Source: a virus | Virus record (IMG/VR): IMGVR_UViG_3300050132_000271 | Coordinates: 1-26,352 of that record | Direction: 5' to 3' (one strand) | Length of the DNA: 26,352 nt | Part shown: positions 1 to 23,463 of the stretch, in pieces | Layout of the letters: each line of letters opens with the position of its first letter | Position numbering within the stretch: position 1 is the first letter of the stretch | Notes under the pieces: generated by a model | What the model was told of the DNA's origin: nothing | The model's database searches: none | What the model saw: only the letters and a program-made list of their open reading frames with translations | Position numbers and translations under genes: made by a program

Positions 1-1
1 C

Positions 2-367
2 AAGGGAATGAAACCGCGCACCCTGGGCGTGCCGGCGTGGGTGCTGCCCTGGATCCTGGCCCTGCCGCGCACCGTGTCGGGCCTGATCTTCCCCGGCGAA
101 GACGGCAAGGCGCACCCGGCCGGCTGGCTCCGGAAGGCCTTGGCGCGCGGGGCCCGGGCGGCCGGTGTGGTTGGCACCCTGGGCAACCACCGGCTGCGCG
201 CCTCGTTCGCCACCCGGCACGCCGCGGGCGGTACGTCACTGGACGCCATCCAGGCGATGATGGGCCACCGGTTCATCACCACCACCCGGGACTACATCGA
301 GGACAATCTGGCGCAGCAGAAGCAGGCCCAGGACGCCCTGGCGACGAAGTTGAGAAAGGGCTCCTGA
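2..367 (+). CDS. int: Tyrosine recombinase / phage integrase, C-terminal part (truncated by window edge)
   Basis: The frame is open to the left edge, so only the catalytic C-terminal part of the gene is visible. Counting from the first visible Met at position 8, the box II motif HRLR gives H61 and R64, the motif MMGHR gives H87, and the motif TTRDYIE gives Y96, the expected nucleophile. Spacing and order match the catalytic domain of tyrosine site-specific recombinases, which integrate and excise temperate phages. The gene ends about 75 bases before a tRNA-Lys 3' fragment, the usual place for an integrase beside its attachment site. The first arginine of the active site should lie upstream of the window. 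The family is clear; whether it belongs to this phage or to a neighbouring element depends on reading the tRNA fragment as attP, which I favour. Confidence 0.9.
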   Translation, partial: KGMKPRTLGVPAWVLPWILALPRTVSGLIFPGEDGKAHPAGWLRKALARGARAAGVVGTLGNHRLRASFATRHAAGGTSLDAIQAMMGHRFITTTRDYIEDNLAQQKQAQDALATKLRKGS

Positions 368-442: not shown

Positions 443-492
443 CTTGACTCTTAATCAGAGGGTCCAGGGTTCGAGTCCCTGAGGGACCACCA
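443..492 (+). other. Candidate attachment core: 3' half of tRNA-Lys (anticodon CTT)
   Basis: The stretch folds as the 3' half of a tRNA. There is an anticodon loop CTCTTAA at 448-454 with anticodon CTT, a 5-nt variable loop, a T arm CAGGG-TTCGAGT-CCCTG at 465-481, an acceptor 3' strand AGGGACC, discriminator A489 and CCA at 490-492. The 5' half is missing: no GGTCCCT acceptor strand and no D arm occur upstream, and the outer two positions of the anticodon stem pair poorly (C-A, T-G), marking the likely edge of identity with the host tRNA. Phages that integrate into tRNA genes carry exactly such a 3' half to rebuild the gene. I read it as the attP core next to the integrase. An attR followed by a second prophage is the alternative. 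Confidence 0.75.
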
Positions 493-499
493 GAAAAAC

Positions 500-527
500 A
501 GCCCCGAAGCCTAACAACTTCGGGGCT
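500..527. terminator. Hairpin terminator just after the tRNA fragment, possibly bidirectional
   Basis: A perfect 10-bp stem pairs AGCCCCGAAG (500-509) with CTTCGGGGCT (518-527) around an 8-nt loop. On the + strand it is followed by TTTCC. On the - strand it is followed by GTTTTT, which gives the stronger intrinsic terminator for leftward transcription. It would separate the integrase from late read-through, and after integration it would stand directly behind the rebuilt tRNA-Lys gene. Confidence 0.7.
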
Positions 528-652: not shown

Positions 653-841
653 CTAGTTCTCTTCCACGCCCAGCACGTCTCCGATCCGATCGACGATCGC
701 GCTCGCCCCCAGGTGGAGCACCCAGGCCTCATCAGCAGAGAGGGTATCGCCAGCGGCCGCCAGGCGGTGGTGGAGGCACAGCGCCCCCAGGGTGACGCGT
801 TCGGCATCCCCCAAAATTTCGGTGGTGATCTTGTCGTCCAT
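653..841 (-). CDS. Small hypothetical acidic protein (62 aa), divergent from the RHH regulator
   Basis: I do not recognise this protein. It is 62 residues, acidic and helix-prone, without membrane segments or cysteine motifs apart from a single CLHH. The ATG at 841 has a GGAG about 9 bases upstream, which supports this start. A longer frame through the same strand exists in another register and looks like a shadow. The gene is transcribed leftwards, away from the ribbon-helix-helix gene, across a shared AT-rich region with a near-palindrome, and a TATAAT (- strand, 917-912) lies in a suitable place for its promoter. The pairing suggests the two genes are co-regulated, but no function can be assigned. 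Confidence 0.55.
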   Translation of the reverse strand: MDDKITTEILGDAERVTLGALCLHHRLAAAGDTLSADEAWVLHLGASAIVDRIGDVLGVEEN

Positions 842-948: not shown

Positions 949-960
949 GGGGCATGCCCA
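949..960. promoter_or_regulatory. Palindromic motif GGGGCATGCCCA, copy 1 (over the RHH gene start)
   Basis: The perfect 10-bp palindrome GGGCATGCCC (950-959) covers the Shine-Dalgarno-like AGGGG and the ATG of the ribbon-helix-helix gene. The identical 12-mer recurs at 1457-1468 in front of the lipoprotein gene. The palindrome's GCATGC core also occurs at 1185-1190. GCATGC is found inside several late genes too, so only the 12-mer match and its placement are notable. It may be an autoregulatory operator. Confidence 0.4.
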
Positions 961-1163
961 TCCGACCCTCACCAGGCCGTCCCCGGAAGGACGAGCCACC
1001 GGCCCCCAGCCGCCGCCGGGTGGTAAGGATGCCGTTGGATGTGGACGAACTGGTGGTTAAACAAGCCGCCGCCCGAGGGCTTAGCTATCAGGCAGCAGTT
1101 CGAGAAGCGATGGTGCTTTGGCTGAAAGCCAAGGACCCAAGTCGCAAGGGGGAGGAGATATGA
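954..1163 (+). CDS. Ribbon-helix-helix (CopG/Arc-type) small DNA-binding protein
   Basis: The product has 69 residues. A basic, proline-rich N-terminal tail (about residues 1-22) is followed by a strand-like RRVVRMPLDV, then two helices (DELVVKQAAARG and SYQAAVREAMVLWLKAK). This is the layout of ribbon-helix-helix repressors, which dimerise and insert the strand into the DNA major groove. The ATG at 954 is chosen over longer in-frame starts because it sits just behind AGGGG and gives a fold of the right length. Neighbours are a divergent 62-aa gene and, 315 bp downstream, the spike-like lipoprotein. A 12-bp palindrome over its own start is repeated before the lipoprotein gene, so it may regulate itself and that gene. 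It could instead be an antitoxin, but no toxin follows it. Fold moderately sure; targets inferred. Confidence 0.6.
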   Translation: MPIRPSPGRPRKDEPPAPSRRRVVRMPLDVDELVVKQAAARGLSYQAAVREAMVLWLKAKDPSRKGEEI

Positions 1164-1456: not shown

Positions 1457-1468
1457 GGGGCATGCCCA
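1457..1468. promoter_or_regulatory. Palindromic motif GGGGCATGCCCA, copy 2 (at the lipoprotein ribosome-binding site)
   Basis: This is the same 12-mer as at 949-960. Its last base is the first base of the Shine-Dalgarno AGGAG (1468-1472), which stands 6 bases before the ATG at 1479. A protein bound here, or a short RNA hairpin, would affect translation or transcription of the lipoprotein gene. Confidence 0.4.
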
Positions 1469-1478
1469 GGAGCCACAC

Positions 1479-2723
1479 ATGAGATCAATCTCCCTCCTTG
1501 CCCCCGCTCTGCTTGCAATTTGCGTGGGGTGCAGCGGAGGAGGGACTTCGATCAATACCACCATTAATGCCAAAGACTATGGAGCACTGGGCACGGGATA
1601 TCCTATTGATGATACGGCGGCAATTCTGGCTGCAGCAGCATCCGTACCGGCGTCCGGTGGGACTCTCGAAATTCCAGCCGGAACGTATTACAGCGCGAAG
1701 GGCATCAATATTATCAGGAACAACCTCACCGTCATCGGGGAGGGTATGCCGACCGTCTCTTCAGATTTGCAGAGTCTTAAAGGTGGAACCATCATCCAGA
1801 ACCAGTTCCAGATCGTTGGTTCGAACATCACAGTCCAGCAGTTGGGAGTAGATTCAGGAATCACCTTTTCCAATGCCCACATGGCCGGATCCGGGACCAA
1901 CGGCCTGGTGATCCACGATCCGGCCAACCACGTTATCTATCAAAATGTGAACGTCAAGGACTGCGTCGGCCTGTGCCGCATCGGGAATTCCCAGGACTCC
2001 ACAGCGGCCTTCCACGCGATCCTGCTCGAGGGAATCCAGAATGGAAGCGCCGATAATCTCCTGGGCATAGGCGGCTGGTTCGGCATCGTGCTCAAGGTGA
2101 GTGATTTCACCTGTGGATCCCTTCAGGCCCAAGAGAACGATGCAGCCTCGGTCCTCATTAAATCGCAGTCATATGCTCCTGTGGCCCGCGTCAAGGTCGG
2201 CAGCGTGACAGTCCAGAACAGCGCGAATTCCCGCGGTTACTTTGGCTTCGAGGTAGTCGCGTGCGATGCCGCCCTCAGCGATGTGACCGTGGGAACCGTG
2301 AATGTCACGGGCGGAGGCTCAGCGGTTGGCGTTACCACTGAGGGCTCATTCCCTGTGGATTCCGTATCGATCGGAACGGTCACAGCACAATCCCCGATCA
2401 ACGGCATCAGCGTCCTTGGCACGGTCCAGGGCCTGGTCATCGACAAGGCCACCATCACCCTGCCCACCCTCGGCTTGGGCCTCACCACGGGGCTGGGCGG
2501 ACTTCAGACCACCGATCAGCCGCTCAGCCTCTCCGTCAAAACCCTGCGCGTCGTTCCTGGTCCCTACGCCTGGGCCCTGGACATCGCCAGCCCCTCCACG
2601 GTGGCAACCTTTGGCATCGTCGATGTCAGTAATGCCGATGGTTCAATCGGTGTGAACTCCAAAATTGATGTCCAGCCCAACACCGTCATTGGCCAATGCA
2701 TCGGGACCATCGTTTGCCACTAG
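1479..2723 (+). CDS. Exported lipoprotein-like paralogue of the phage tailspike beta-helix
   Basis: The 414-aa product begins with a short export signal (MRSISLLAPALLAICVGC) ending in a near-canonical lipobox with C18, then a Ser/Gly linker. From about residue 30 to the end it is a pectate-lyase-like right-handed beta-helix (KDYGALGTG, VPASGGTLEIPAGTYY, NNLTVIGEGMP). By eye more than half of its residues are identical to residues about 70-450 of the tailspike at 2885-4606. It lacks the spike's N-terminal virion-binding part and stops where the spike's C-terminal module begins. The ATG at 1479 is preferred over an upstream TTG because AGGAG lies 6 bases before it and the signal starts here. 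It converges on the late operon with a 3-bp gap. I infer a lysogen-expressed envelope protein, perhaps for superinfection exclusion or surface glycan modification. The membrane anchor depends on an imperfect lipobox. Confidence 0.8.
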   Translation: MRSISLLAPALLAICVGCSGGGTSINTTINAKDYGALGTGYPIDDTAAILAAAASVPASGGTLEIPAGTYYSAKGINIIRNNLTVIGEGMPTVSSDLQSLKGGTIIQNQFQIVGSNITVQQLGVDSGITFSNAHMAGSGTNGLVIHDPANHVIYQNVNVKDCVGLCRIGNSQDSTAAFHAILLEGIQNGSADNLLGIGGWFGIVLKVSDFTCGSLQAQENDAASVLIKSQSYAPVARVKVGSVTVQNSANSRGYFGFEVVACDAALSDVTVGTVNVTGGGSAVGVTTEGSFPVDSVSIGTVTAQSPINGISVLGTVQGLVIDKATITLPTLGLGLTTGLGGLQTTDQPLSLSVKTLRVVPGPYAWALDIASPSTVATFGIVDVSNADGSIGVNSKIDVQPNTVIGQCIGTIVCH

Positions 2724-2726
2724 GTT

Positions 2727-2882
2727 TCACTCAGGGTTCAGCTGCGCACGCTCACGTGGATCCAGGCTGGCCTTGAACTCTTCGGCCCGGCGGAAAGACT
2801 CTTGGAGTCGAGCTGCCATTTTCTGGGCCATCCGCTCGGCCCGGGTGAGAGTCTGAACCGGCTCCTCTTTGATCTTCTTCAC
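2727..2882 (-). CDS. Small basic helical protein, last gene of the late operon (51 aa)
   Basis: A GTG at 2882 follows the tailspike stop codon by 2 bases, so translation is probably coupled. The product is 51 residues, highly charged and predicted helical (RAERMAQKMAARLQESF), without cysteines or membrane segments. The frame also continues upstream inside the spike gene, but that part is out of register with the spike and is a shadow. A small gene right behind the spike could be a spike assembly or folding factor; that is only positional. The stop lies 3 bp from the end of the convergent lipoprotein gene, and no terminator is visible between them. Confidence 0.5.
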   Translation of the reverse strand: MKKIKEEPVQTLTRAERMAQKMAARLQESFRRAEEFKASLDPRERAQLNPE

Positions 2883-2884
2883 GG

Positions 2885-4606
2885 TTAGACGCCTCCCGTC
2901 GCGGGGATCTTGGTCGGGAATTTGAGGTCGGTTAGGTTGAACCAGCTCAGCCCAGAATAGGCGGCGCGGTTGGGCAGCAGCGACAGGTTTCCAGAGCTGT
3001 CCATGTTCACAGTAACCGGGACCAGCTGGTTGGTCGTGCCGTTGAACCCGGTCATGTGCGTGATGAACGCAAGACCCGCAGGGTGGAACCCACCGGGCAG
3101 CGTCATGAAAATCTCTGCGGTGGCGCCGGATGCGCTGATGCGCCCGTAGCCGCTGGTCCATCCACCCTGGACCAAGATGCCCGTCGCCTGCCCGTAGGCT
3201 GCGGCCCACCCATTCACCAGGGCCGGGATGGTCCCAGCGTATTTGATGTTTCCGACGCACTGCCCGATGTTGGTGTTGGTCTGCACGTTGATATTCGAAT
3301 AGGCCCCGATACTGCCATCGGAGGCGCTCACATCAACAAGGCCCAGAGTCGCCACGGTGGTGGGCGACGCGATGTCCACCGCGAAGGTGTAGGATCCGCT
3401 GGGAACCACCCGCAAGGTGTTGATGGCGATGGAGAGCGGGTGATCCGTCCCCAGGCCGCCGACTCCCGTGGTCAATCCCAGCCCAGTGGGCTGCCAGATC
3501 GCCGCGGTGCCGATGGTCAGATTGTAAATGGCGCCCCTTACCGCAATGCCATTGGTCCCAAAGCGGGTTGCGATGGTCCCGATGGAAACGGTATCGACGG
3601 GGTTGGCCCCTTCAGTGCAGACGGCGACACCGGTGCAGGAGCTGCCGCCCCACACGCTGACGTTGCCCACCGTGACATCGCTCAAGGCGGCGCTGGAGGC
3701 TACGACCTCCAGGCCGTAATAGCCACGGGAGACAGCGTTGTAGACCGAGACGCAATTGATATTCACCCGGGCCACAGGGGCATACGATTCAGACTTGAGA
3801 ATCACGCCGGCCGCGTCATTCTCCAGCGCTCGCAGGGAACCGCAGTTGAAATCGCTGACCTTGAGGACAACCCCGAACCAGCCGCCGACACCCACCAGGT
3901 TGTCGGCGTTGCCGTATTGCAGACCCTCAAGGAGAATTCCATGGAACGCCGCCGTGGGATCGAGGTTGTTCCCGATCCGGCATAGGCCGATGCAATCCCT
4001 CACGTTGACGTTGTAGTGCATGGCGATGTTGGCTGGATCGTGGATGACCAGGCCATCGGCTCCGGCCCCGGCCAGGTGAGCGGCGCTGAACGTGATGCCC
4101 GAATCGACGCCGAGTTTTTCGACCGTGATGTTGTCGCCGATGATCTGGAATCGGTTCTGGATGATGGTTCCACCGACGAGGCTGTGGAGGTCTGCTGCCA
4201 CCTTCGGCATCCCCTCCCCAAGGACCGTCAGGTTGTTCCGGGTGATGCTGATGCCGACCAGGCTGTAATAGATACCCGCCGGCACATGAAGGATTCCCCC
4301 ACTGGCCGGGATGGCGGCGGCGGCATTCAGGAAGGCCGTGGTCGAATCCGCCACGCCGGTGGGGTCGGCTCCATAATCGAGAACCGACACGTTCTCGGCG
4401 TTTTTCTGATGCTGGGTTCGGGGCACGGCGCCAGTGCCAGCGGCCATAACACCCACCAGGGCATCCCCTTGCCCTGCGGCGGTGGAGGCGAGGGCTGCCG
4501 TCAACCCGACCGCGGCCGCGTAGTTCGGGCCTTGGGGGATGACGTTGATAATCAGCGCCGGAGGGGCCAGGAGGGTGACGAAAATAGATTGAGGGTCGAC
4601 GGCCAT
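2885..4606 (-). CDS. Tailspike / tail fibre with pectate-lyase-like beta-helix
   Basis: The 573-aa protein has three parts. Residues about 1-65 are a short Ala/Gly-rich N-terminus, probably the part attached to the virion. Residues about 70-450 are a beta-helix starting with VSVLDYGADPTG, the usual first turn of phage spikes of the Pectate_lyase_3 type. Residues about 450-573 form a C-terminal module (GTIPALVNGWAAAYGQ, then LKFPTKIPATGGV) that probably trimerises or binds receptor. Such spikes recognise and often cleave surface polysaccharide. I cannot assign catalytic residues. The gene is the penultimate one of the late operon, where receptor-binding genes usually sit, and follows the previous gene by 2 bases. 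Its beta-helix is duplicated in inverted orientation in the lipoprotein gene at 1479-2723. Confidence 0.85.
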   Translation of the reverse strand: MAVDPQSIFVTLLAPPALIINVIPQGPNYAAAVGLTAALASTAAGQGDALVGVMAAGTGAVPRTQHQKNAENVSVLDYGADPTGVADSTTAFLNAAAAIPASGGILHVPAGIYYSLVGISITRNNLTVLGEGMPKVAADLHSLVGGTIIQNRFQIIGDNITVEKLGVDSGITFSAAHLAGAGADGLVIHDPANIAMHYNVNVRDCIGLCRIGNNLDPTAAFHGILLEGLQYGNADNLVGVGGWFGVVLKVSDFNCGSLRALENDAAGVILKSESYAPVARVNINCVSVYNAVSRGYYGLEVVASSAALSDVTVGNVSVWGGSSCTGVAVCTEGANPVDTVSIGTIATRFGTNGIAVRGAIYNLTIGTAAIWQPTGLGLTTGVGGLGTDHPLSIAINTLRVVPSGSYTFAVDIASPTTVATLGLVDVSASDGSIGAYSNINVQTNTNIGQCVGNIKYAGTIPALVNGWAAAYGQATGILVQGGWTSGYGRISASGATAEIFMTLPGGFHPAGLAFITHMTGFNGTTNQLVPVTVNMDSSGNLSLLPNRAAYSGLSWFNLTDLKFPTKIPATGGV

Positions 4607-5288: not shown

Positions 5289-8063
5289 CTATGTGGTGCC
5301 GAATCCTTGGTTTCTGATGATTGTTTCCAGGGCGATCACCTTGTTGTGCATCGCCTGCACATGTGATAGGTCGGTGGCATAGCTGCCGCTGTAGGTGTAA
5401 GCGGCCAGTGTGGTTCCTAGACCGGTCTGCTGCCCCCCCAGCACCTGGACTCCGTTCACCTTGACGACCTGGCCGGCGGCAAGGTTGACCCCGGTGCTGA
5501 AGGTGCCATAGGTGGCCCCAGCAGGGGTGACCACCGGGGTGTGGGTATAGACGGTGGCGCTGGCCAGGGTCTGGTTGCCGTTCCCGCCCCAGAGATTGCA
5601 TGACACCAGCTTGAAATAGAGGAGGGTGCCCATGGCCGAGGGAGGCACGGCATAGCGGAACGGCTGAGAATTGCAGGCCAACACCGGCACACCGGAGCCC
5701 TGCGCCGCGGCCGCGGTCCCGTAGGCGCCCCGCACCGGCAGGGTCAAGGTATAGACATTGCTGGAAACCAGGGTCGCCGTGCTCCAGGCCACGAGCTCGC
5801 CGTTGACCCACATCATGGGGATCAGATTGGTGGCCTGGGTGGTGGTGTAGCTGGGCAGTGTACCACCCGATGCTCCCAGGTTGACCTGGACCCCGCCGGT
5901 CGTGCCGATGGCCGAGCTAGTGACGCCGTAGAGGCAGGGCCCCGAGACCTTCCCGGCCAAGGTGTAGGTGGTGCCATCCAGGCTCACCCAGACCTGGGCG
6001 CTGCCCCAGAGGGGACCGCCCGAGGAAGCGATCAGCAGCTCCGGACCACCGCTCACCGAGAACTGGGCCGGCACGTCCATGATGATCGGGGTGTTCGAGG
6101 CGCCTGGGTCCACCGTTCCGTTCATGACCGGCTGCGTGGTGATCTGCCCCGTGTAGATGGTCGGGGTGCCGACTCCGACCGGCCACGCCTCGGCCGTAAT
6201 GGTGATGCCTCCGGATTCGTCCTTCTTTTCCGGGAAGTCCACCGAGACGATCCGGACCAGCAGGGCATTCAGCCCAAGGAATGGATCGCTGATGGTGATG
6301 AAGTCCATGGGTTCGAGCAGCTGGAACCGCCACCCCACCTTGAAGGTGTACTGGTTCCGGATGTAGACGCTGCGCTGGGCCTGGAGCCTTGAGACCGCCT
6401 GGGCCATGGCGCGCCGGCAGATCATGTGCAGGGTCAGGCCGGAACCCACCTTGGTACCGTGCAGGGCAGTGTCCACCGGTTCCGGATCCTGGACGGCGGA
6501 GACGTTGTAGGCCGACATCCGATCCCACCACTCGACCGGGATGGCGTTGAAGACGTCGCTGGTCGAGGTGCGGGTCACCTGCACCGGGTCGTCTCCGGAG
6601 GGATCCCCGTTCTCATCCACGGCGCCCAGGAAATCGTCCAGGGTTAGGCTGTAGAGCGGTGTGGTGTTCGGGGTGTAGGTGACGCCGTTGGCGGTGACCG
6701 GCGTGTCGCCATAAGGGATCACGTTCAGTTCCATGCCGTTCTGGCCGGCGTGGCAGATGGGCTCGCTGTTGGTCGCCGTGAACAGGTCCTTCAGGTGCTC
6801 GGCGGCCGCCTTCTGCTGGTCGAAGGCCGGCGAGACGGCGAAGCCCATGGCCGTGCAGTAGGTCTGCCAGCTGCCTGGATTGGCGTTCATCCAGGCGACC
6901 TGGGCCGCCACCTGGACCGTGGTCTCCTCCTGCTCCTCGATGGCGTTCCAGGCGATCACCGCGCCGGTGGCCGGCGCTGTGGTGAACGAGATGGCGACAT
7001 AGCCGCCGTTGTTGACGATGGTGAAGCCGCCGAACTGCTGGATGCCGTTGAGGTAGTAGCTCGGGTCCACATAGGCCGTGCCCCAGGGGATGGCGGCGCC
7101 GGCCACAGTGAGCAGGTTGAACACGGTGGTGCTGGCGTTGCCGGTGCCCACCGGGATCAGCGTGGTGGAGGTCAGGTAGGGGCAGCCGGTGATGAGGGCG
7201 GAGATCCGCGAGGTGGACCAGCCAGGCACGCCATGGATGGGAGAGGTCAGGAAATCTACCAGCACAGCCGAGGGCTTGGCGTCGTTCATGATCGCTTCGG
7301 TGGTATTCCAGGCCACCACCGCATTCAAGGGGGGAGCGATCGAGAAGGTGATCGCATAGGCGTTGGATACCTTGCCCACCGTGAAACCGGAGGTCTGCTG
7401 GACTCCATTCAGATAGAAGCCCGGGTTGATGTAGCCCGTGAAGGGCGGCGTGGTGCTGTCGGTGACCTGGGCCCCGTTGGTGTCCAGCAGGTAGAACACG
7501 GTCCGAACCGTGTCGCCCAACCCCAGGGTGGTCAGGCTGTTGGTATCCGGCTCGGTCGCCAGGAGTGCCTGGACCTCAAAGGCATTCGTCGGCAGGCTGG
7601 CGTTGGAGCCCATGTCGAACGTGTCATTGCAGGCCAGGGCGATGCCCGGGTAGCCCACCGCCTTGATCGGGTGATTGGTCTGCCAGGTGCTCCAGGGGAA
7701 CTGCGGCCGCTGGCCGTTGAGCACGGTCATGCCGTAGAAGCTCAGGGTGTTTTCCGCGGCGTTCTGCCACATGCGGTTGATGCCCGCAATGGGCCCCTCG
7801 CACAGCGCCAGGATGGCCCCGGCGCTGTAGGTGTAGCTGGTGGAGACGCTGCCGCCCTTGCCGGTGCGGGTGCTGTTGGCGTGGGTGACGAAGTCGTCGT
7901 AGTCGACCAGGTTCCCGGTTACCCGGGTCGTCCCATAAATCAGCGGCAGGGATCCGCCGTAGGAGCTGGTCTGCAGGTTGATGCCCACCAGCTGGTCGGT
8001 GGAGGTGCGCTTGGTGCCAAAGAGCCCCAGCGGGTCCATGAGGGTGTGCTTGCCGCCGCCCAT
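5289..8063 (-). CDS. Tail tip / baseplate hub protein (GTA gp15-like, phage J-like)
   Basis: The 924-aa product starts at ATG 8063, which overlaps the previous stop as TAATG and has a G-rich Shine-Dalgarno 7 bases upstream; a TTG 15 bases earlier is less likely. The N-terminus (LVGINLQTSSYGGSLPLIYG, VTGNLVDYDDFV) is typical of tail-tip proteins of siphophages and gene transfer agents. The part after residue 470 (DVFNAIPVEWWDR, PMDFITISDPFLG) matches the hub region that closes the tail tube. Two related inserts of about 70 aa (183-254 and 306-375, sharing YLNGVQQ/YLNGIQQ and VVAWN/VIAWN) interrupt the N-terminal half. The C-terminus ends with a helix that could trimerise. It follows the NlpC/P60 gene as in the GTA order. 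Hub role is well supported; adhesion role is inferred. Confidence 0.85.
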   Translation of the reverse strand: MGGGKHTLMDPLGLFGTKRTSTDQLVGINLQTSSYGGSLPLIYGTTRVTGNLVDYDDFVTHANSTRTGKGGSVSTSYTYSAGAILALCEGPIAGINRMWQNAAENTLSFYGMTVLNGQRPQFPWSTWQTNHPIKAVGYPGIALACNDTFDMGSNASLPTNAFEVQALLATEPDTNSLTTLGLGDTVRTVFYLLDTNGAQVTDSTTPPFTGYINPGFYLNGVQQTSGFTVGKVSNAYAITFSIAPPLNAVVAWNTTEAIMNDAKPSAVLVDFLTSPIHGVPGWSTSRISALITGCPYLTSTTLIPVGTGNASTTVFNLLTVAGAAIPWGTAYVDPSYYLNGIQQFGGFTIVNNGGYVAISFTTAPATGAVIAWNAIEEQEETTVQVAAQVAWMNANPGSWQTYCTAMGFAVSPAFDQQKAAAEHLKDLFTATNSEPICHAGQNGMELNVIPYGDTPVTANGVTYTPNTTPLYSLTLDDFLGAVDENGDPSGDDPVQVTRTSTSDVFNAIPVEWWDRMSAYNVSAVQDPEPVDTALHGTKVGSGLTLHMICRRAMAQAVSRLQAQRSVYIRNQYTFKVGWRFQLLEPMDFITISDPFLGLNALLVRIVSVDFPEKKDESGGITITAEAWPVGVGTPTIYTGQITTQPVMNGTVDPGASNTPIIMDVPAQFSVSGGPELLIASSGGPLWGSAQVWVSLDGTTYTLAGKVSGPCLYGVTSSAIGTTGGVQVNLGASGGTLPSYTTTQATNLIPMMWVNGELVAWSTATLVSSNVYTLTLPVRGAYGTAAAAQGSGVPVLACNSQPFRYAVPPSAMGTLLYFKLVSCNLWGGNGNQTLASATVYTHTPVVTPAGATYGTFSTGVNLAAGQVVKVNGVQVLGGQQTGLGTTLAAYTYSGSYATDLSHVQAMHNKVIALETIIRNQGFGTT

Positions 8064-8503
8064 TATTTGCCCCCCCAAGGCGACCAGAACCCGACGAAAT
8101 GCTTGACCAGGTCGGCGTTGCCCTTGGCGTCATCCAGGACGACCATGCCGGCCTTGAGGTAGGCGTGGATCACCTGGGGCCAGCGGGTAACGATGGCGCC
8201 GTGAGAGATCGTCCGGCCAATCCGGTAGAGCACGATGTCCCCCGGGCGGGGTGGACCTTCGATCCGGTGGGCGTACTGCTCGACGTGCGCCAGGTAGCGT
8301 TCCTCATCCTTGTGCATGTGCCAGTCGTGGGGATATTCGGCCGGGATGATCTCCGGCATGACCCCGGCAGCCTCGTAAACCAGGGCCAGCAGTTGGCCGC
8401 AATCCACCCCGGCGCCCTTGACCCGGGCCATGTGGGCGTAGGGCGTGCGCAGCCAGGACAGGGCCTCCTGGACCACGGCGGCGCGCTCGGTTGCTTCGCT
8501 CAT
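8063..8503 (-). CDS. NlpC/P60-type tail assembly peptidase
   Basis: The 146-aa protein has the NlpC/P60 papain-like layout: catalytic Cys in VDCGQLLALVYEAAG (C35), His in SHGAIVTRW (H101) and a third polar position near VIHAY (H113). In phages and gene transfer agents this protein sits at the tail tip and locally cuts peptidoglycan peptides during DNA injection or tail assembly (like the C-terminal half of lambda gpK). The ATG at 8503 overlaps the stop of the DUF2163 gene as ATGA, and GGAG stands about 8 bases before it. Its own stop overlaps the next start as TAATG. Length and active site are complete. Confidence 0.88.
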   Translation of the reverse strand: MSEATERAAVVQEALSWLRTPYAHMARVKGAGVDCGQLLALVYEAAGVMPEIIPAEYPHDWHMHKDEERYLAHVEQYAHRIEGPPRPGDIVLYRIGRTISHGAIVTRWPQVIHAYLKAGMVVLDDAKGNADLVKHFVGFWSPWGGK

Positions 8504-9522
8504 AGCCCACTCTCCGCAGGGGGCACGAAGGGGCAGCCCCTGAAGTAGCCCAGGTTCCAGGCCGTGCCGGTGCCAGCCGCGGTGGCCGTGGCCGTGAAGA
8601 TGGTTCCCACTGCGGCTCCCGCCGGCGCGCCCGCGGCCGTCCAGGTGGTGGTGCCCAGGCTGGTGATCTGGTAGACGGCGCCCACCACCAGGACCGGGCT
8701 TGCGGTGCCCCAGAACTTCTGGCAGGCCGCCATGGAGCGGGCACAGCCGGGGTAGACCGTGAAGGTGTCGCCGGGGGCGGGAGTGGCCGGCAGGGACGTG
8801 GCCGGCGTGATGGTGGTGCCATCGTAGGCCGAGACCGCCACGGAGGTGCCAGAGCAGACCCCAGAGGTGAAGCTCAGCACGCCGTTCTGGTAGTAGTTCG
8901 CGGGCTGGGCCGGCGCGCCTTTGATTGCCGTCGCCGTCGAGCCGCTGGCGGTGGTCCCGATGATGGTCAAGGCTGGGATGCTGATCCCGCAGGAGGCGTC
9001 CCCGAAAGTGTTGGCGCAGGCCGGCAAGAAAAGGGTCCTGGGCATCTGTACGGCGAGCAGGACCGTTGAGGAGGACACGTGCAAGACCACCTCGGTGCTT
9101 CCGAGATCTACGTCCGCCACCAGGCCGTCGAAGAGGATGTATCCCCCAAGGGTCGTGGTGTCGCCCCAAGTAGGCATGACCACTCGGGTCACCAGGACCT
9201 GGGCGTTGTCGAAGGCGCCGTTGTGGGCCGCCAGGGTGCAGTTCACCCCCAGGACCTGGGCCGACTGGCCACAGAACTGGGTGAGGTCCATGGTCGATAC
9301 CTCGAGGCCCCGGGTGTTGCGGATCTCCCCACGCTCGAGCACCGGCTCCCCGGCGTTGTCCACGGCCGCCGTGTAGAGGTTGCCGGCGTAGGTGAGGTTG
9401 ATATCGGCGTCGGTCCACCGGAACACCTGCCCGGTCTGCAGGGAGATCTGGTAGAGATCAGCCATCAGAAAGGTGCTGTTGGCGGCGAGATAGGCGATGA
9501 GGGCGGGGGAGGCGTATCTCAT
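8500..9522 (-). CDS. Baseplate hub protein, DUF2163 family (GTA gp13-like), with inserted module
   Basis: The start ATG at 9522 overlaps the previous stop as ATGA. The 340-aa product begins MRYASPALIAYLAAN and continues VFRWTDADINLTYAGNLY, the N-terminal signature of the DUF2163 family, the hub component of gene-transfer-agent-like tails. The C-terminal cysteine cluster (GCARSMAACQKFWGT, then NLGYFRGCPFVPP) is the second family hallmark. Between those two C-terminal pieces lies an extra segment of about 45 residues (GAVYQITSLGTTTWTAAGA, GTIFTATATAAGTGTAW) that resembles a mobile beta module of phage tails and is not part of the usual family core. Neighbours on both sides complete the DUF2460-DUF2163-NlpC/P60-hub set, which supports the assignment. 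Confidence 0.8.
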   Translation of the reverse strand: MRYASPALIAYLAANSTFLMADLYQISLQTGQVFRWTDADINLTYAGNLYTAAVDNAGEPVLERGEIRNTRGLEVSTMDLTQFCGQSAQVLGVNCTLAAHNGAFDNAQVLVTRVVMPTWGDTTTLGGYILFDGLVADVDLGSTEVVLHVSSSTVLLAVQMPRTLFLPACANTFGDASCGISIPALTIIGTTASGSTATAIKGAPAQPANYYQNGVLSFTSGVCSGTSVAVSAYDGTTITPATSLPATPAPGDTFTVYPGCARSMAACQKFWGTASPVLVVGAVYQITSLGTTTWTAAGAPAGAAVGTIFTATATAAGTGTAWNLGYFRGCPFVPPAESGL

Positions 9523-9899
9523 TTCACGCTCAGAAGCCGGATCGAGCCGCTTTTCCACACGAGATAGACGATCTGCTCAAGGTCGAGCTGGTCCTGCTGG
9601 AACCGGCAGGTCCGGACCACGCCATCCACCGGATCCAGGAAGTTGAAGGTCCCGAATTGGCCGGCCATGGAATCGAAAAAGGTCTTCAGCGCGAGGACCT
9701 CGTCAAATAGCGTCTGGGCACTGAAATTTGCCTGGCGCAGAAAGTTGAAGGTCAGTTCGTAGGAGAACTTCGGGGAGCTCCACCAAGAGGCCCGCTGCTC
9801 CTTGCCGGTGGCGCCCGACTGGACGCCGGTGGAGTAGATCGGTCCGGTGCGCTTCACGGCGATGTCGAGACCGGGCAGGCTGGGGAACGTGGCGGTCAT
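9519..9899 (-). CDS. Distal tail protein, DUF2460-like (GTA gp12-like)
   Basis: The 126-aa product opens MTATFPSLPGLDIAVKRTG, has an arginine/tryptophan-rich centre (KEQRASWWSSPKFSYELTF) and the segment FFDSMAGQFGTFNFLDPVDG, which corresponds to the conserved GxxxxFxFxDPxD part of distal tail proteins. This protein forms the ring between tail tube and hub. ATG 9899 overlaps the tape measure stop as ATGA, and its stop overlaps the DUF2163 start. It is shorter than the roughly 200 aa of the GTA version, so it may be a minimal form. Position between tape measure and hub is exactly as expected. Confidence 0.75.
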   Translation of the reverse strand: MTATFPSLPGLDIAVKRTGPIYSTGVQSGATGKEQRASWWSSPKFSYELTFNFLRQANFSAQTLFDEVLALKTFFDSMAGQFGTFNFLDPVDGVVRTCRFQQDQLDLEQIVYLVWKSGSIRLLSVK

Positions 9900-12247
9900 G
9901 AGCGCCTCCCGTTCCTGGCCATGCCACCAAGGGCACCGGCCAGGGCGGAACGGTTGGAGGACTTGCCCAGGAACTGTTTGACGCTCTTGGCGTCCATGGC
10001 GTGCACGTGGATGACGTTCCCGCCCCCACTGTTCCCGCCGCCCCCGCCGCTGCCCTGGTTGGCGACCATGTCCCGGATCCCGGTGGCCAGCGGGGCGCTC
10101 ATGACCATCTCGTTTTTGTGGATCTGGGCCACCTGGTCGCTCGGGACCTGGTCCCAGCCGCCGGCGGCGGAGGCCATGGCCGCCATCGCCAGGCCGGAAC
10201 TGTAGGCTTCAGCCCCGACCCCCGGCGCCATCGCCCAGCCGTAGACCGGGATCGCCGCGGCGCTGGCCATCGCATTGACCGCGTAGACGGCCGCGGCCCC
10301 GGTGGCCTCGGAGACCCCGGTGGTCTTCTGCATGACCAGGCTGGCGGCCCACTTGATTGCCTCCTGGATGCCCCACTGGACAAAGAAATTGATCAGGCCG
10401 TCCAGGGCCGAGCTCAGCACGTTCTGGAACGCCTGGCCCCAGGTCATGGTGCCGTGGATCAGGCCAGTGATCGACTTGCTGAACCCGCCGGTCATGGAGC
10501 CGAAGAACCCCTCCCACTGGGCCCGCTGCTTGGCCAGCGACTGGTTTTCGAGCTCCTGGATCTTGGTGGCATTCTGCCGGGCCGCGTCCAGCTTCTTGTT
10601 CTGGAGCTTTTGCCAGTCGGCGGTGCTGATGCCCTCCCGCTGCTGCTCCTGGGTGAGGGCCTGGACCTCCATCGTGGCGGTCTGCTGCTGCAGCTGCACC
10701 CGGGCAGCCAGTTCCTGCTGCGCCGACATGCGGGTGGTGGCCACCTTCTGGTTCAGGGCGGCCGTCTGGTTGGCGAGCCCATCCTTGGCGGCCTGGGTCT
10801 CCTCCCGGGCCGTCTCTTTGGCCATGGCGGCGATCTCTTTGTCCGCCTCGTCGGTGCGCTTCTGGAGTTCGGTCCGAGCCTTTGCCTGCTCCTGGGTGCC
10901 CTTCAGGGTCAGCTCGGCGATCTGATGCTCGGTCGCGGCGACGATGGCCTTTTTCTCGTTCTGCAACTTGGCGAATTCGGCGGCATAGTTGATGTCGGCC
11001 TTGCTCAGCTTGGAGATACGGGTGTTCACCGCGGCCAGCTCGGCGGCCGACTCAGTCATCACAGCGGCCTTCTCCTGGGCCAGGGCCTCCATCTTCGTGG
11101 TTGCTTCATCGGCCACGCTCTGGTTGAGGGCGTCCTTCTTCGCCTGGTAGGCCTGCTTCGCGGCCGCGACTTGGCCGAGCATGGTCTGCTCGGCGAGCTT
11201 CTGCGCTGCCTCGGCCTGCTTCAGCGAGTCGTCCTTGGCGTGCGGGTCGACGTAGGTCTTCTTGTTCTCCTCCCCGGCCCGGTGCGCGCCGGCGTCCATG
11301 GAGTCCTTGCTGGTCCGGAGCCCCTCGGCATAGGCTGCGTTCCACTCCTTGGCCTTGGCGATCGCCAGGTCCATGTCCAGGATGACGTTCTTCCGCCAGT
11401 CGTCTGCGGCGTTGCCGGACTGGATGAACCCACGCCGGGCCAGTTCCATGGCGTCGTTGCTGGCGTTCGCGTGCTCGGTGGCCGCGGCCTTCACATTGAG
11501 CCACGCCATTTTCATCACGCTGGCCCAGGCGGACACCCCGGCGGCGTAGGCCTGGTCCGCGTTCTTCAGCCGGCCCTCGGCCTCCTCCATCTGGTGCATC
11601 TGCTCGATGGCGAAGGGGCTGATGATCTGCACGCCCTTGGCTTCCTCGGCGTGCTTCACGAACTCGTCCAGCAGCATGCCGGTCTTGGCGCCGGCCCGGC
11701 CCAGGGCGAGCATCAGGAACTCGTTCTTCTGGAGCGGAGACGCCATCTCGTTGGCGATCTCGTTCACCTTGACCATGTAGTCGCCGAACGTCATGTTCGC
11801 CAGGCTGGCCTTGTCTGCGGCCACGCCGTTCATGACCAGGCCTTCGGCGTTCGACTTCACGGCCCGGGTCATGCCCTGCATCAGCCCGGTGAGGTCCTCC
11901 GTGGATCCGCCCGAAAGCTGGATGGCGGCCACGTACTGGTTCATCTCCTGGTTGCTGGCGCCGGTGCTGTATTTCAGGGTGGCGAAGCTCTTGGCCAGGG
12001 CTGTGGTCGCCTCGATCGACTCCAGGACGTATTCGACCGACGCCTTGATACCTTCGAAGGCGAGACCCACCGCGGCCAGGCCGAGGGCCGCCACGCCCAT
12101 GCTTTCGATCGTCTCGGCCATTTTGCTGATGCTGCCGGTCATGCCCTCGGTGGCTTCCTTGACGGCATCATGGGCCTTGCCCATCCCGGACAGCAGGCTC
12201 TGGATCTGCGCGGTGAACTCGACTTGAACCTTGCTGTCATCGCTCAT
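9896..12247 (-). CDS. Tail tape measure protein
   Basis: The 783-aa protein is largely helical. After an amphipathic start (MTGSISKMAETIESMGVAAL) there is a long Ala/Gln/Lys/Glu-rich coiled-coil region, about residues 310-570, then a hydrophobic segment (AVYAVNAMASAAAIPVYGW, about 620-660). A C-terminal motif QVAQIHKNEMVMSAPLA follows, matching the LHxxExV motif seen near the C-terminus of many tape measure proteins, and then a Gly-rich linker. It sets tail length and is ejected into the cell envelope with the DNA. At the rule of thumb of 0.15 nm per residue the tail would be about 115-120 nm. The gene follows the G/GT chaperone pair directly, with the ATG at 12247 one base after the GT stop. 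Size and position leave little doubt. Confidence 0.92.
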   Translation of the reverse strand: MSDDSKVQVEFTAQIQSLLSGMGKAHDAVKEATEGMTGSISKMAETIESMGVAALGLAAVGLAFEGIKASVEYVLESIEATTALAKSFATLKYSTGASNQEMNQYVAAIQLSGGSTEDLTGLMQGMTRAVKSNAEGLVMNGVAADKASLANMTFGDYMVKVNEIANEMASPLQKNEFLMLALGRAGAKTGMLLDEFVKHAEEAKGVQIISPFAIEQMHQMEEAEGRLKNADQAYAAGVSAWASVMKMAWLNVKAAATEHANASNDAMELARRGFIQSGNAADDWRKNVILDMDLAIAKAKEWNAAYAEGLRTSKDSMDAGAHRAGEENKKTYVDPHAKDDSLKQAEAAQKLAEQTMLGQVAAAKQAYQAKKDALNQSVADEATTKMEALAQEKAAVMTESAAELAAVNTRISKLSKADINYAAEFAKLQNEKKAIVAATEHQIAELTLKGTQEQAKARTELQKRTDEADKEIAAMAKETAREETQAAKDGLANQTAALNQKVATTRMSAQQELAARVQLQQQTATMEVQALTQEQQREGISTADWQKLQNKKLDAARQNATKIQELENQSLAKQRAQWEGFFGSMTGGFSKSITGLIHGTMTWGQAFQNVLSSALDGLINFFVQWGIQEAIKWAASLVMQKTTGVSEATGAAAVYAVNAMASAAAIPVYGWAMAPGVGAEAYSSGLAMAAMASAAGGWDQVPSDQVAQIHKNEMVMSAPLATGIRDMVANQGSGGGGGNSGGGNVIHVHAMDAKSVKQFLGKSSNRSALAGALGGMARNGRRS

Positions 12248-15687: not shown

Positions 15688-17211
15688 CTAGCCGTTGGTG
15701 ATGTTGGTGATGACGCCGAGGCTGGGCGGGAAGTAGTGCTGCAGCACGCCGTCGGCGTAGACGCCGTACTCGTACTTCCGGCTCTTGAGGGGCCATTCCA
15801 GCTGGTAGTAGTCCCGGCGCAGCTTCTTGCGCACCACGTCGGCCACCCCGTTCAGGGGGTAGGGCACGGCGTCGGTGTAGAACAGGATGGTGCCCGGGGG
15901 CAGGAGCGGGTGGACCTGGATGGGGATGTCCACGTTCATGACCTTGTTCAGGTACGAGCCGACCACCGCGCCCGCCGCGATCTTGCCGTCGGCGATCTTG
16001 CTGGCGTCCATCGTGAAGCGGAGCAGGGGCGCGCCGCCGTTGGCGATGATCTTCTTGGTGATGTTGATGCACTCCTGGCTGGACACGAAGATCCGGGTCG
16101 GGCTCAGGCGGTAGCGGTTGTAGAAGGTGGCGAAGGCCAGCTCGAAGTCGGCGATGCCGCCGGCGCCGTCCGAGGTGAGCGCCGTGCCGGTGCCGGCCAC
16201 GCCGGTCGCCAGGGTCGCGTAGTAGGCGTTGGAGCCCGCCTTGGCGGCCAGGGTGAACAGGCCGTCATAGTCCAGGGCGCTGGTGCTGTAGTCGTTGGCG
16301 GTCAGGGCCGAAGCCAGCTGGCCGGAGGCCGGGAAAGTGGTCAGGACCACCGAGTTGATGCTGGTGATGGCGGCCAGGCGCTCGGTGCCGGCCGTGGATC
16401 CGACGAACCAGGCGTAGCCCCAGGCGCCCTTGACGGCGGCCACGGAGCTGGCGATGGAGCCGTTGGGGCCGGTGACGTTGGCGGTCTGCGCGGTGCTCTT
16501 CTGGGCGTTGCCGCCGCCGAAGGTGTCGATGCTGCCGTCGGTGTTGGTCTTGGAGATCTGGCCGGGGACCTGGGCGACGGTCGGGTCGAAGATCTGCCCG
16601 GTGATGCCGTCGTTGTGGCCGGCGACGTCCAGGTAGGCCTGGGGGCCGAGGGCGACGCAGATGACCGAGGCGGTGGCCGCGGTCGCCATGGAGCCGGCGG
16701 TGCCGACGACGTTGGTCGGGGTGGGCGTGGTGCCCAGGGCGTTGCTGGTGTTTCCGCCCAGGTCCAGGCGCTCTTCCTGGATCATGAGGGACTGGAGCAG
16801 CTGCTGCACGGCCAGGGCCTTCAGGTCCATGAATCCGGCGGCCGCGAGGTCCGCCTCGAAGGTGACGAAGTTTTCCAGGCCCCACCCGCGGTAGGCGGCG
16901 AGGTATTCCGTGAGCTGCTGGGCGATCACGCCGCCCCGGTTGCCTTCAGAGACGCCCGCGCGCTGGTTGGCGCTGTTGATGCCGGTGATGGCCTTCCAGT
17001 TGGCCTGGGAGCCGAAGCCGGTGACCCGGCGCGGGATGATGTTGCGCAGGGGCGTGAGGACGGGGATGAGCAGCTTGGCAGGGGCTTCCAGGTCGTAGAG
17101 CTGCATGCCCTGGGTGGCGGTGGCGGTCTGGCTGAAGGACTTGGTCAGCTCGTCCACGATGGGGGCGGACTGGGCCTTCTTCAGCTGGGCAAGGATTTCG
17201 TTGGTGTCCAT
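15688..17211 (-). CDS. Major capsid protein, HK97 fold
   Basis: The 507-aa product starts with a helical segment (NEILAQLKKAQSAPIVDELT), followed by LLIPVLTPLRNIIPRR, typical of the start of the HK97-fold core in capsid proteins with a separate protease. The end, RRDYYQLEWPLKSRKYEYG and VLQHYFPP, is typical of the C-terminal P/A-domain strands. At about residues 230-340 a Gly/Ser/Thr-rich stretch (GSIDTFGGGNAQKSTAQ, YAWFVGSTAGTERLAAI) makes it longer than the usual 300-400 aa and may form a surface insertion domain. GGAGGA 7 bases before ATG 17211 gives strong initiation. It lies behind the prohead protease, as in the standard head order. Confidence 0.92.
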   Translation of the reverse strand: MDTNEILAQLKKAQSAPIVDELTKSFSQTATATQGMQLYDLEAPAKLLIPVLTPLRNIIPRRVTGFGSQANWKAITGINSANQRAGVSEGNRGGVIAQQLTEYLAAYRGWGLENFVTFEADLAAAGFMDLKALAVQQLLQSLMIQEERLDLGGNTSNALGTTPTPTNVVGTAGSMATAATASVICVALGPQAYLDVAGHNDGITGQIFDPTVAQVPGQISKTNTDGSIDTFGGGNAQKSTAQTANVTGPNGSIASSVAAVKGAWGYAWFVGSTAGTERLAAITSINSVVLTTFPASGQLASALTANDYSTSALDYDGLFTLAAKAGSNAYYATLATGVAGTGTALTSDGAGGIADFELAFATFYNRYRLSPTRIFVSSQECINITKKIIANGGAPLLRFTMDASKIADGKIAAGAVVGSYLNKVMNVDIPIQVHPLLPPGTILFYTDAVPYPLNGVADVVRKKLRRDYYQLEWPLKSRKYEYGVYADGVLQHYFPPSLGVITNITNG

Positions 17212-18730: not shown

Positions 18731-20938
18731 TCAATCCTCCGTTTCGTTGCTGAGGACCGGCAGCAGGTCGCACCGGCAGTCGGGATGTCCGGGGCACTCG
18801 GTGTCCCCGCTGGGCCACGCCTCGGTGGCGTCGCCGGTTTCGGGGTCCATCGGGACCTCAACGTCGTCGTTCGATTCGCATTCAGGGCAGACCTTGTCGT
18901 CGCCCTCGTTCGCGGTGATCCACTTCAGTCCGCCCACCACACCGGAGGCGGCATAGGCCAGGGTGTTGCCGCGCACGTCGGCGAAGGCCCGCTCGGTCCT
19001 GGCGATCAGCTCCGCCCGGGCCTCGCTGAACCCGTAGTCGGAGCTGATGACTTCGGCGATCTGGTCGGCGCTCATTCCCAACTCGATCCCGGCAGCCAGG
19101 TCACCGCGCAGGCTCACCCGGGTGGTGTTGGCCAGCTTGGTCACCAAGTCGGCAGCGTGCTGCTCGGCCCAGGTGACGGCGCGCTCGTTGACCTGGTCCA
19201 GCAGGTCCGCCGTGGTCTTGGCACCCACCTGGGCCAGGCCCTGGGCCACGCCATCCTGGGCGATCGCGGCCAGGATCGGCTCCAGGTCGTCGCCCAGCTC
19301 GTGCCAGTCGATGTTCGAGGCCTCCAGGAGCTGCTTGGCCTCCTCGCTGGACATCTTGGCCATCTTCTCGGCCGTGGGCGGCATGGCGGCGTGCAGGGCC
19401 TCGGCGATGGGCTGGACCTGGGCCTTGAGGAAGGCCAGGGTGGTCTTCTTGAGCTTCGCCTCGAGCTTCTTGACGGTCTTCCGGTCGCGGTTGATCGGCT
19501 TGACCTTCTTCGCCGCCTTGGCGAACTTTGCGGCCGGGGGCGCCGGCGCAGGCTTCGGTTCGGCAGCCGGGACCTGGGCGGGGGCAGCCGCGGCAGGGTC
19601 GGCGCCAGGAACGGCGGGCGCGCCGGGGACAGACCCGGGCACCAGAGTGCCCACCACGGCGATCGGCTCAGGATCCGGCAGGGGCTCAAGCCCGCGGTCC
19701 TCCCGGCACTCGTTGACCTCGCGCACGCCGGAGTTGATGTCGATCTGGTCGACCTGGGCCTGGATCAGCGGCTCCATGGAGGCCTCGTCGCTCCAGACGA
19801 ACTCCAGGTCCGGCGCGCCGAAGCAATCCCGCAGGATCCGGTCCATGAGCGCCTTGACCCACATCATGACGGGCGCCAAGCCCTCGCTCAGGGCCGCCTT
19901 CTGGACGGTGTCGGCCACCGACCTGTTGGTCTGCTTGATGAGGGCGGTGGGGCTGATGGAGAACGCGAAACAGATGATCCGGGCCAGCCAGTCGTCCATC
20001 TCGTCCTTCAGCGCCGCGGCCTTGGTGTCGATCGGCGTCACGCCTTCGGGGATGAACTTCGCGGAGCGGCGCTGACGCAGGTTGCCCTTGTTCATGGAAT
20101 CCCAGTTGTCCTGGAATTTCTTGATCTGATCGACATTCCATTCCTTGGGCACACTGAAGATCAGGTCGGGGGCGTTACCGTCCGTGTAGTAGCTCAGCTG
20201 GTGCAGCTGCCGGCGCAGGGCGATGTTGACGGTCGTCATGACCTGCTCCACCGGGCCGTAGCCGAACGCCCGGTGGGTCCGGGGGTTGCGGGGCATGTAG
20301 AGCAGCTCCTGGCGGGTGTAGTCGCAGACCGGGACGCCCTTGATGATCTGCTGGTAAGCGGGGCCCTTCATGGGGGTCCGGCCGGTGGGGTCCAGGATCC
20401 GCTTGATGGTGGCGCCGTCGATGCACTCCAGGGAGTAGAGCGCGCCGCCCTTGGTCCGCCGGTTATAGACCGCCGGGGCATCCAGGACGAAGACGTCCTC
20501 GCAGAGCATCCGGATCCAGGTGCCGAAGGGGTGCTCCAGGTCCGGGTAGGCCAGGAAGTCGGTGTACTTCTCAATGCGGGGGTCAGGCCCGGCGCCCTTC
20601 TTAACGATCTTCTGGCCGCGCTTCTTGAGCTCCCAGGACAGCTTCTCGATCTGGTCCTTGCGGGTCTCGATCACCAAGCGCAGCAGGTCGTAGCCATCGG
20701 CCAGGTTCCGGAGCTCCGAAAGCTGGACGCCCTCGTAGGGCTTCGGCGTGATCTGGATGTTGTAGCCGGTGGCGAAGTCGAAGGCCCGGCCCTCGGTCTG
20801 CTCCTGGGCGTACGGCTGGAGCGGGACGCCCGGGCCGAAGAACTCGTTGCCGTTGTTGCCGACGGTGAACGACCAGATCCCGGCGCCGCCGGGAGGGACG
20901 TTGAGGTCGGTGGCTTTGCCGCCGGGAGCGGTGCTCAT
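18731..20938 (-). CDS. Portal protein fused to a MuF-like head morphogenesis domain
   Basis: Residues about 1-425 are a portal protein: ETRKDQIEKLSWELKKRG, PFGTWIRMLCEDVFVLD, YGPVEQVMTTVNIALR, and the portal end INSGVREVNECREDRGLEPL. A Pro/Ala linker (430-480) leads to a helical segment and then a MuF/SPP1 gp7-like domain: ELIARTERAFADVRGNTL, W-I-T-A-N-E-G-D-D, and putative metal ligands C684, C687, C715, H718, C721 and C723 in CPEC and CPGHPDCRC. The portal forms the DNA entry ring; MuF proteins are minor head proteins bound to it. Here both are in one 735-aa chain. The ATG at 20938 overlaps the previous stop as ATGA. Portal and MuF calls are strong; the single-chain form should be real because the frame is unbroken. 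Confidence 0.9.
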   Translation of the reverse strand: MSTAPGGKATDLNVPPGGAGIWSFTVGNNGNEFFGPGVPLQPYAQEQTEGRAFDFATGYNIQITPKPYEGVQLSELRNLADGYDLLRLVIETRKDQIEKLSWELKKRGQKIVKKGAGPDPRIEKYTDFLAYPDLEHPFGTWIRMLCEDVFVLDAPAVYNRRTKGGALYSLECIDGATIKRILDPTGRTPMKGPAYQQIIKGVPVCDYTRQELLYMPRNPRTHRAFGYGPVEQVMTTVNIALRRQLHQLSYYTDGNAPDLIFSVPKEWNVDQIKKFQDNWDSMNKGNLRQRRSAKFIPEGVTPIDTKAAALKDEMDDWLARIICFAFSISPTALIKQTNRSVADTVQKAALSEGLAPVMMWVKALMDRILRDCFGAPDLEFVWSDEASMEPLIQAQVDQIDINSGVREVNECREDRGLEPLPDPEPIAVVGTLVPGSVPGAPAVPGADPAAAAPAQVPAAEPKPAPAPPAAKFAKAAKKVKPINRDRKTVKKLEAKLKKTTLAFLKAQVQPIAEALHAAMPPTAEKMAKMSSEEAKQLLEASNIDWHELGDDLEPILAAIAQDGVAQGLAQVGAKTTADLLDQVNERAVTWAEQHAADLVTKLANTTRVSLRGDLAAGIELGMSADQIAEVISSDYGFSEARAELIARTERAFADVRGNTLAYAASGVVGGLKWITANEGDDKVCPECESNDDVEVPMDPETGDATEAWPSGDTECPGHPDCRCDLLPVLSNETED

Positions 20939-23152: not shown

Positions 23153-23463
23153 ACTGGCCCCCACATCGGAAAGAAGTCATCAGGCAGAGCGGCCAGCAGC
23201 GCCCGGCGGAACCCGGGCGGATATGGCGCCTCGGGGTGGTAGCGGCCGGCCTCGAGGTCCCAAGGCACGGCAAACTGCACCACGGCTTTCACGGGGAGGC
23301 CCAGCTGGGGATCGGCCACAACCTCAGCCGTGAACTCGTGCTGGCGCCGATACATAGGCATGCCGACGAGTCTGACCACCTCCGCCACTTCTGGGATCGG
23401 CTGGTAGAGCGCTCTCAGGTCTGGGCCGCCTTCCTCGCGGCTGGGAATGTTTCCAAGGTTCAT
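23149..23463 (-). CDS. Hypothetical protein behind the large terminase (104 aa)
   Basis: ATG 23463 overlaps the terminase stop as ATGA; upstream frame is a shadow. The product is 104 aa with a central AEVVRLVGMPMYRRQHEF and the aromatic C-terminus LPDDFFPMWGPV. It has alternating strands in the middle (LPVKAVVQFAVPWDLEAG). I do not recognise it. No cysteines or membrane segments are visible. Confidence 0.6.
   Translation of the reverse strand: MNLGNIPSREEGGPDLRALYQPIPEVAEVVRLVGMPMYRRQHEFTAEVVADPQLGLPVKAVVQFAVPWDLEAGRYHPEAPYPPGFRRALLAALPDDFFPMWGPV

Follow-up and report, generated by a model that had tools for sequence, protein, structure and literature searches.

The DNA analysed here (hereafter the window) is the whole of the IMG/VR virus record IMGVR_UViG_3300050132_000271, 26,352 bases long. 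Its late genes lie on the - strand and are transcribed leftwards, whereas the gene at the centre of this work, a second copy of the beta-helix of the tailspike, is found on the + strand, convergent with them. The relevant features are the following.

1..367, + strand: C-terminal third of a tyrosine integrase (8-367), the gene being truncated at the contig start (PF00589, E 2.3e-10)
446..492, + strand: attP core, corresponding to the 3' half of a tRNA-Lys(CUU) gene (Rfam tRNA model; core found in relatives)
653..841, - strand: short ORF resembling the ORF that adjoins attP in the related contig L098 (7056-7319, - strand; translations compared by eye)
954..1163, + strand: small Arc-like ribbon-helix-helix protein (phrog_6506, E 3.6e-4; 39% to L094 2616-2449)
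1468..1472, + strand: ribosome-binding site AGGAG (from the sequence; 6-nt spacer to ATG 1479)
1479..2723, + strand: spike copy with an export-type N-terminus, 414 aa (BLASTP to the spike, codon alignment, family alignment, tree)
1479..1532, + strand: signal peptide (residues 1-17) and lipobox-like Cys18 of the copy (sequence; relaxed lipobox scan)
1575..2711, + strand: residues 33-411 of the copy, its beta-helix (64% identity with that of the spike; low-confidence model rich in strands)
2727..2882, - strand: ORF of 51 aa that follows the spike and converges on the copy (reading frame; phrog_12020, E 0.001)
2885..4606, - strand: virion tailspike, 573 aa (PF12708, E 2.7e-6; PHROG tail spike families; N-terminal match to Sf6 tailspike structures)
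2888..3241, - strand: C-terminal domain of the spike, residues 456-573, missing from the copy (shared by contigs L104 and L105)
3242..4378, - strand: beta-helix of the spike, residues 77-455 (alignment to the copy and homologues)
4379..4606, - strand: virion-anchor region of the spike, residues 1-76, missing from the copy (Sf6 match, family alignment)
5289-8078, - strand: tail tip, late gene
8500-9558, - strand: baseplate hub, late gene
9896-12247, - strand: tape measure, named from position and size
15688-17211, - strand: probable major capsid protein, from position and size, its PHROG having no function
18731-20938, - strand: portal, late gene
23460-24992, - strand: terminase, late gene

The window is a temperate phage in its non-integrated form, although a tandem prophage would look identical. 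The end of its integrase is 83% identical to that of L093/L094; the same tRNA core occurs in L093 and L098, and two contigs other than the window combine this core with an integrase whose end is 83% identical. ARAGORN detected no whole tRNA in the window, and the Rfam tRNA model scores the attP core at 22 bits, below the gathering score, fitting only with the acceptor stem unpaired. L093 and L098 are identical through the terminal CCA of the core and diverge beyond it, as they should if one contig spans attP while the other spans a junction with the host. As integrase, tRNA core and tail region are contiguous, in this order, in both the window and L098, these two are attP forms. Used as a query, the core matched no host genome. 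In both attP forms, a terminator-like hairpin follows the core (window 500-527; L098 after position 6689), which after integration would stand just behind the restored tRNA. Both also encode an Arc-like protein by attP (window 954-1163; L098 6780-7010), in opposite orientations, with a similar short ORF beside each.

The copy is located at the att end of the phage, outside the late operon; such a position, convergent with the late genes, is the usual site for a lysogenic-conversion gene. Since attP is beside the integrase end, integration would leave the copy at a prophage end, close to the restored tRNA. Its GC3 is 0.68 versus 0.92-0.97 in the terminase, portal, capsid and tape-measure genes. 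The copy therefore has the place of a moron: it belongs to a temperate phage, lies outside the lytic operon, has its own orientation and shows a distinct composition. No promoter was recognised upstream of it.

An ORF finder also lists TTG 1455 as a start, but the more likely one is ATG 1479, which AGGAG (1468-1472) precedes by six nucleotides. The protein begins with MRSISLLAPALLAICVGC (18 residues), followed by the linker SGGGTS. This N-terminus includes a positive n-region with one Arg, a hydrophobic h-region (a 14-residue stretch with a mean hydropathy of 2.4) and a lipobox ending in Cys18; among the 798 ORFs of at least 60 aa in the window and related contigs, the copy is one of six that pass a relaxed lipoprotein filter. 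Leu, Val or Ile is usual at position -3 of the strict lipobox, [LVI][ASTVI][GAS]C. The copy has Cys there and thus falls outside this pattern, so that its lipidation at Cys18, predicted from these residues, is likely but not certain. An initial sequence-only reading had proposed that a signal with a lipobox-like Cys18 replaces the virion anchor; the anchor is indeed absent and a hydrophobic export signal with Cys18 stands in its place, but the lipobox is atypical at -3. No PHROG, Pfam or PADLOC match assigns the copy to the Cor/Llp family.

The copy and the spike are paralogues. The almost gapless alignment over about 380 residues announced by the sequence-only reading was recovered by BLASTP (243 of 382 residues identical, 64%; 426 bits, E 3e-150, 7 gaps). 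The same reading placed the end of the copy where the C-terminal module of the spike begins, and this also holds: the last residue of the copy matches spike residue 454, and the domain that spans 456-573 is common to full-length homologues. The copy thus lacks the first 76 residues of the spike and its last 118. It does not qualify as a virion tailspike, having neither virion-binding N-terminus nor C-terminal domain, both of which are present in its own spike and in full-length homologues. In a maximum-likelihood tree of the helix from six family members, the copy and the window spike are sisters with a support of 100/100; the copy therefore derives from the branch of its own phage's spike.

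The codon alignment (375 codons) shows 66% nucleotide identity, or 0.73/0.84/0.42 by codon position, and dN is 0.25 against a dS of about 1.8, which is saturated (dN/dS about 0.14). Therefore, the protein sequence was kept while synonymous sites changed. The copy retains 78 of the 89 helix columns that are invariant in virion spikes, including all the invariant Asp, Glu, His and Lys (D168, H189, D216, H222, E227, K249, D264 and K271 in spike numbering); Y231, N282, N315, R357, Y361 and N440 are among the invariant residues that it lost. Changes in the copy are rarer on invariant columns (11/89) than elsewhere (an estimated 65/286), with a rough p of 0.03. In the mirror test, the spike lost 4 of 82 invariant columns, and the difference between 11 and 4 losses is not significant (p 0.12). 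Acidic residues of the copy are not significantly enriched among those kept (21/26 versus 232/349 for other residues, p 0.19), and catalysis is accordingly not claimed. The helix of the copy (window 1575-2711) contains 19 Gln versus 6 in the spike, many of which stand at charged or aromatic spike residues (R152, E163, K164, Y198, R259, E273, Y289, R348, Y361).

By sequence, both proteins belong to the pectate-lyase-like tailspike family, the spike being above the PF12708 cut-off and the copy matching a tail-spike PHROG at 5.6e-5. Structure models built from two-sequence alignments have a mean pLDDT of 48 and 42, too poor for mapping a binding groove. Searched with Foldseek, these low-confidence models gave beta-helix glycan enzymes and the HK620 tailspike as best matches, none with E < 0.1. 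The start of the copy helix weakly matches secreted glycan enzymes and the surface-anchored streptococcal beta-helix protein PfbA (E 0.075-0.15 for the latter). PfbA is a cell-surface protein encoded by a host gene and anchored to the wall, with no known phage spike partner.

As a test, the sequence-only reading named the recurrence of signal-bearing paralogues beside other spikes, and no such recurrence was seen in the contigs found here. A search of IMG/VR with a degenerate DNA motif for GWFG-x-V-x-KV identified seven other contigs, all encoding spike relatives (38-57% identity). Each has one spike, and the copy is found in 0/7 of them, all possibly fragments; nor was an integrase seen in any of these seven possible fragments, so that the copy is known only from the family member with temperate evidence. 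As the spikes of L099, L100, L103 and L104 are identical or almost so, the independent spikes number about four. Where present, the N-terminus of these proteins varies between phages, as virion anchors do, and the C-terminus is a domain LVNGWA...GG common to members. Peptide-pattern searches for the copy, the spike and the tail-tip proteins in IMG/VR, and for the copy in GTDB genomes, gave no match; such searches miss diverged relatives, seven of which the DNA motif later found. Named phages gave mostly 26-30% matches, to tailspikes of E. coli, Salmonella and other phages, and plasmids gave none. About 2 kb from the spike, L100 (4026-4196) and L104 (8236-8066) show a further match to spike residues 59-119, which may belong to another tail protein that shares the linker. 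Among relatives of the phage as a whole, G003 and G004 have terminases 61-62% identical to that of the window, and the structural genes common to the window and G003, G004 or L098 are 29-82% identical. Their tail ends are different or missing, and none of the three carries the copy.

The explanation that we favour, while putting it slightly short of an even chance, is that the copy is a superinfection-exclusion lipoprotein that masks or trims the receptor. The receptor-binding beta-helix of the lineage's own tailspike would have been duplicated, and the duplicate, stripped of virion anchor and C-terminal domain, would have acquired a lipoprotein signal. A lysogen would express it near attL from a separate unit. 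The protein, after export probably a lipoprotein of the outer membrane, would be exposed at the surface and would bind, or bind and trim, the surface glycan used by the virion spike; incoming phages with the same spike could then no longer adsorb. Several lines of evidence point this way: the 64% identity to the neighbouring spike and the sister grouping, the retention of 78 of 89 invariant columns with every D, E, H and K at a dN/dS of about 0.14, the ribosome-binding site and export signal, the lower GC3, the position at a prophage end on the other strand from the late genes, and the lack of the copy in relatives with other tail ends. Moreover, known exclusion lipoproteins adjoin receptor-binding genes (PMC9586334, PMC12685063), and purified receptor-binding protein of T5 blocks infection (PMC9586334).

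Other data weigh against this explanation. The copy is a single instance, found in 0/7 other spike-family contigs, its export is predicted from a signal with Cys at -3 of the lipobox, and no promoter was recognised. Lipoproteins of the outer membrane are usually oriented towards the periplasm, and a domain located there would be out of reach of an adsorbing phage. Spikes related to that of the window act as trimers, and the copy, devoid of the C-terminal domain, may not trimerise. It has also lost the spike-invariant Y231, N282, N315, R357 and Y361. As to the lysogenic-conversion gene advanced by the sequence-only reading, a spike-derived paralogue with an export signal, at the att end of a temperate phage, opposite to the late operon and with conserved residues kept, is what was found; lipidation, display on the outer face, binding or cleavage of a glycan, lysogen expression and phage exclusion stay at the level of proposals, and recurrence was not seen in the seven other contigs. 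The broader proposal, in which a temperate phage sends to the host envelope, as a lipoprotein, a second version of the domain with which it binds or cleaves its receptor, thereby blocking phages of the same spike specificity by masking or removing the receptor, is somewhat less likely than not.

The same export and conservation evidence would also fit an exported glycan-active lipoprotein that was not selected for exclusion but changes the lysogen surface or serves feeding, be it by adhesion or by trimming capsule or O-antigen in the periplasm or at the surface; the weak matches of the helix start to secreted glycan enzymes and PfbA agree with it. However, the copy adjoins the phage's own spike and is closest to it, whereas a gene for host fitness need not have the specificity of the spike; we regard this alternative as rather unlikely. 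A further alternative, which we hold to be less likely still, is that the copy is a remnant: a discarded or incoming spike, now decaying, that acquired a signal-like N-terminus through a chance fusion, or else a cassette serving as donor in spike switching. Its somewhat longer branch (0.31 versus 0.19 for the spike) and its 11 losses of family-invariant residues versus 4 (p 0.12) lean in this direction, but the frame is intact, a ribosome-binding site and an export signal are present, and invariant residues are mostly retained; besides, a longest exact in-register DNA match of 22 nt at 66% identity is poor for recombination. With DNA identity at only 66% and a signal peptide acquired, the reading as a second cassette for spike switching was rejected.

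That the copy acts in lytic growth only, occupying or stripping the receptor on debris and neighbours and thus sparing progeny virions, has a parallel in T5, where soluble receptor-binding protein blocks the receptor (PMC9586334), but is improbable: the gene is not part of the late operon and faces it, so that late transcription would be antisense to the copy. Finally, immunity through an antisense RNA to the spike gene, made by read-through from the copy, has a precedent reported for STnc6030 of the Salmonella prophage BTP1 (PMC7067206) and agrees with the spacing of 160 nt between the convergent genes, for which no strong terminator was found, but it leaves a conserved, exported protein frame unexplained and is very improbable.

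Among known systems, Llp of T5, Cor of T1 and phi80 and Rtp45 of Rtp are exclusion lipoproteins whose genes adjoin the receptor-binding gene, and Llp and Rtp45 target the same receptor as the receptor-binding protein of their phage (PMC9586334, PMC12685063). Like them, the copy is a phage gene beside a receptor-binding gene, and its product is likely, although not certain, to be a lipoprotein. Unlike the copy, they are small, are not described as copies of a receptor-binding protein and bind a protein receptor, Llp doing so periplasmically; the copy has about 400 residues, is itself a copy of a receptor-binding domain and presumably addresses a glycan. Tailspikes of the Sf6/P22/HK620 type are related through the N-terminal linker of the window spike, which matches Sf6, and the copy has the helix of that spike; it differs from them by the lack of virion anchor and C-terminal domain and by its export signal. 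The GtrABC genes of prophage P22 modify the O-antigen receptor and thereby prevent phages that depend on it from adsorbing (PMC10883804). They alter the glycan itself, whereas the copy, as proposed, would cover or cut it with the spike's own domain; by analogy, a lipoprotein built from the helix of the spike itself would fit between Llp/Cor/Rtp45 and the O-antigen change of P22. PblA and PblB of streptococcal phage SM1 are virion tail proteins themselves, without signal peptide, and no exported duplicate of them is known. They are prophage-encoded and work as surface components of the lysogen (PMC2920869), as proposed for the copy.

In the literature searched, mostly outside subscription journals, we found no description of a tailspike domain with an exported duplicate. 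Known exclusion genes are numerous, and none of those in the literature examined derives from a receptor-binding protein. If the proposal is true, exclusion through a duplicated binding domain and a signal peptide would have built-in specificity, always matching the phage's own receptor, and would be a bacterial counterpart of interference by envelope proteins of endogenous retroviruses or of a receptor-destroying enzyme. It would also predict spike-matched exclusion genes in other temperate phages and offer a handle on glycan receptors of uncultured hosts.

Other lipoprotein genes hint that phages of the group of the window keep such genes in prophage-expressed positions. G004 encodes an unrelated 134-residue lipoprotein, MKVYALILASAALMACGP..., at its distal end, convergent with the late genes (L088:14788-15192, - strand). 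A similar small lipoprotein of G003, MKKMLIVPALVALVGCAS..., adjoins a repressor-like gene (L086:9978-10343, + strand), matches phrog_2320 and, weakly, a Cor profile, and looks like a homologue of that of G004; both are candidate exclusion genes. In L098, the region from attP to the tail genes contains no lipoprotein passing the relaxed filter. The related phage contigs L089 (8818-9765, - strand) and L093 (5865-6671 and 6879-7520, both + strand) encode proteins that consist of short repeats in tandem (NTGxxNTG; pentapeptide-like ADLSEANL; AAGAAA).
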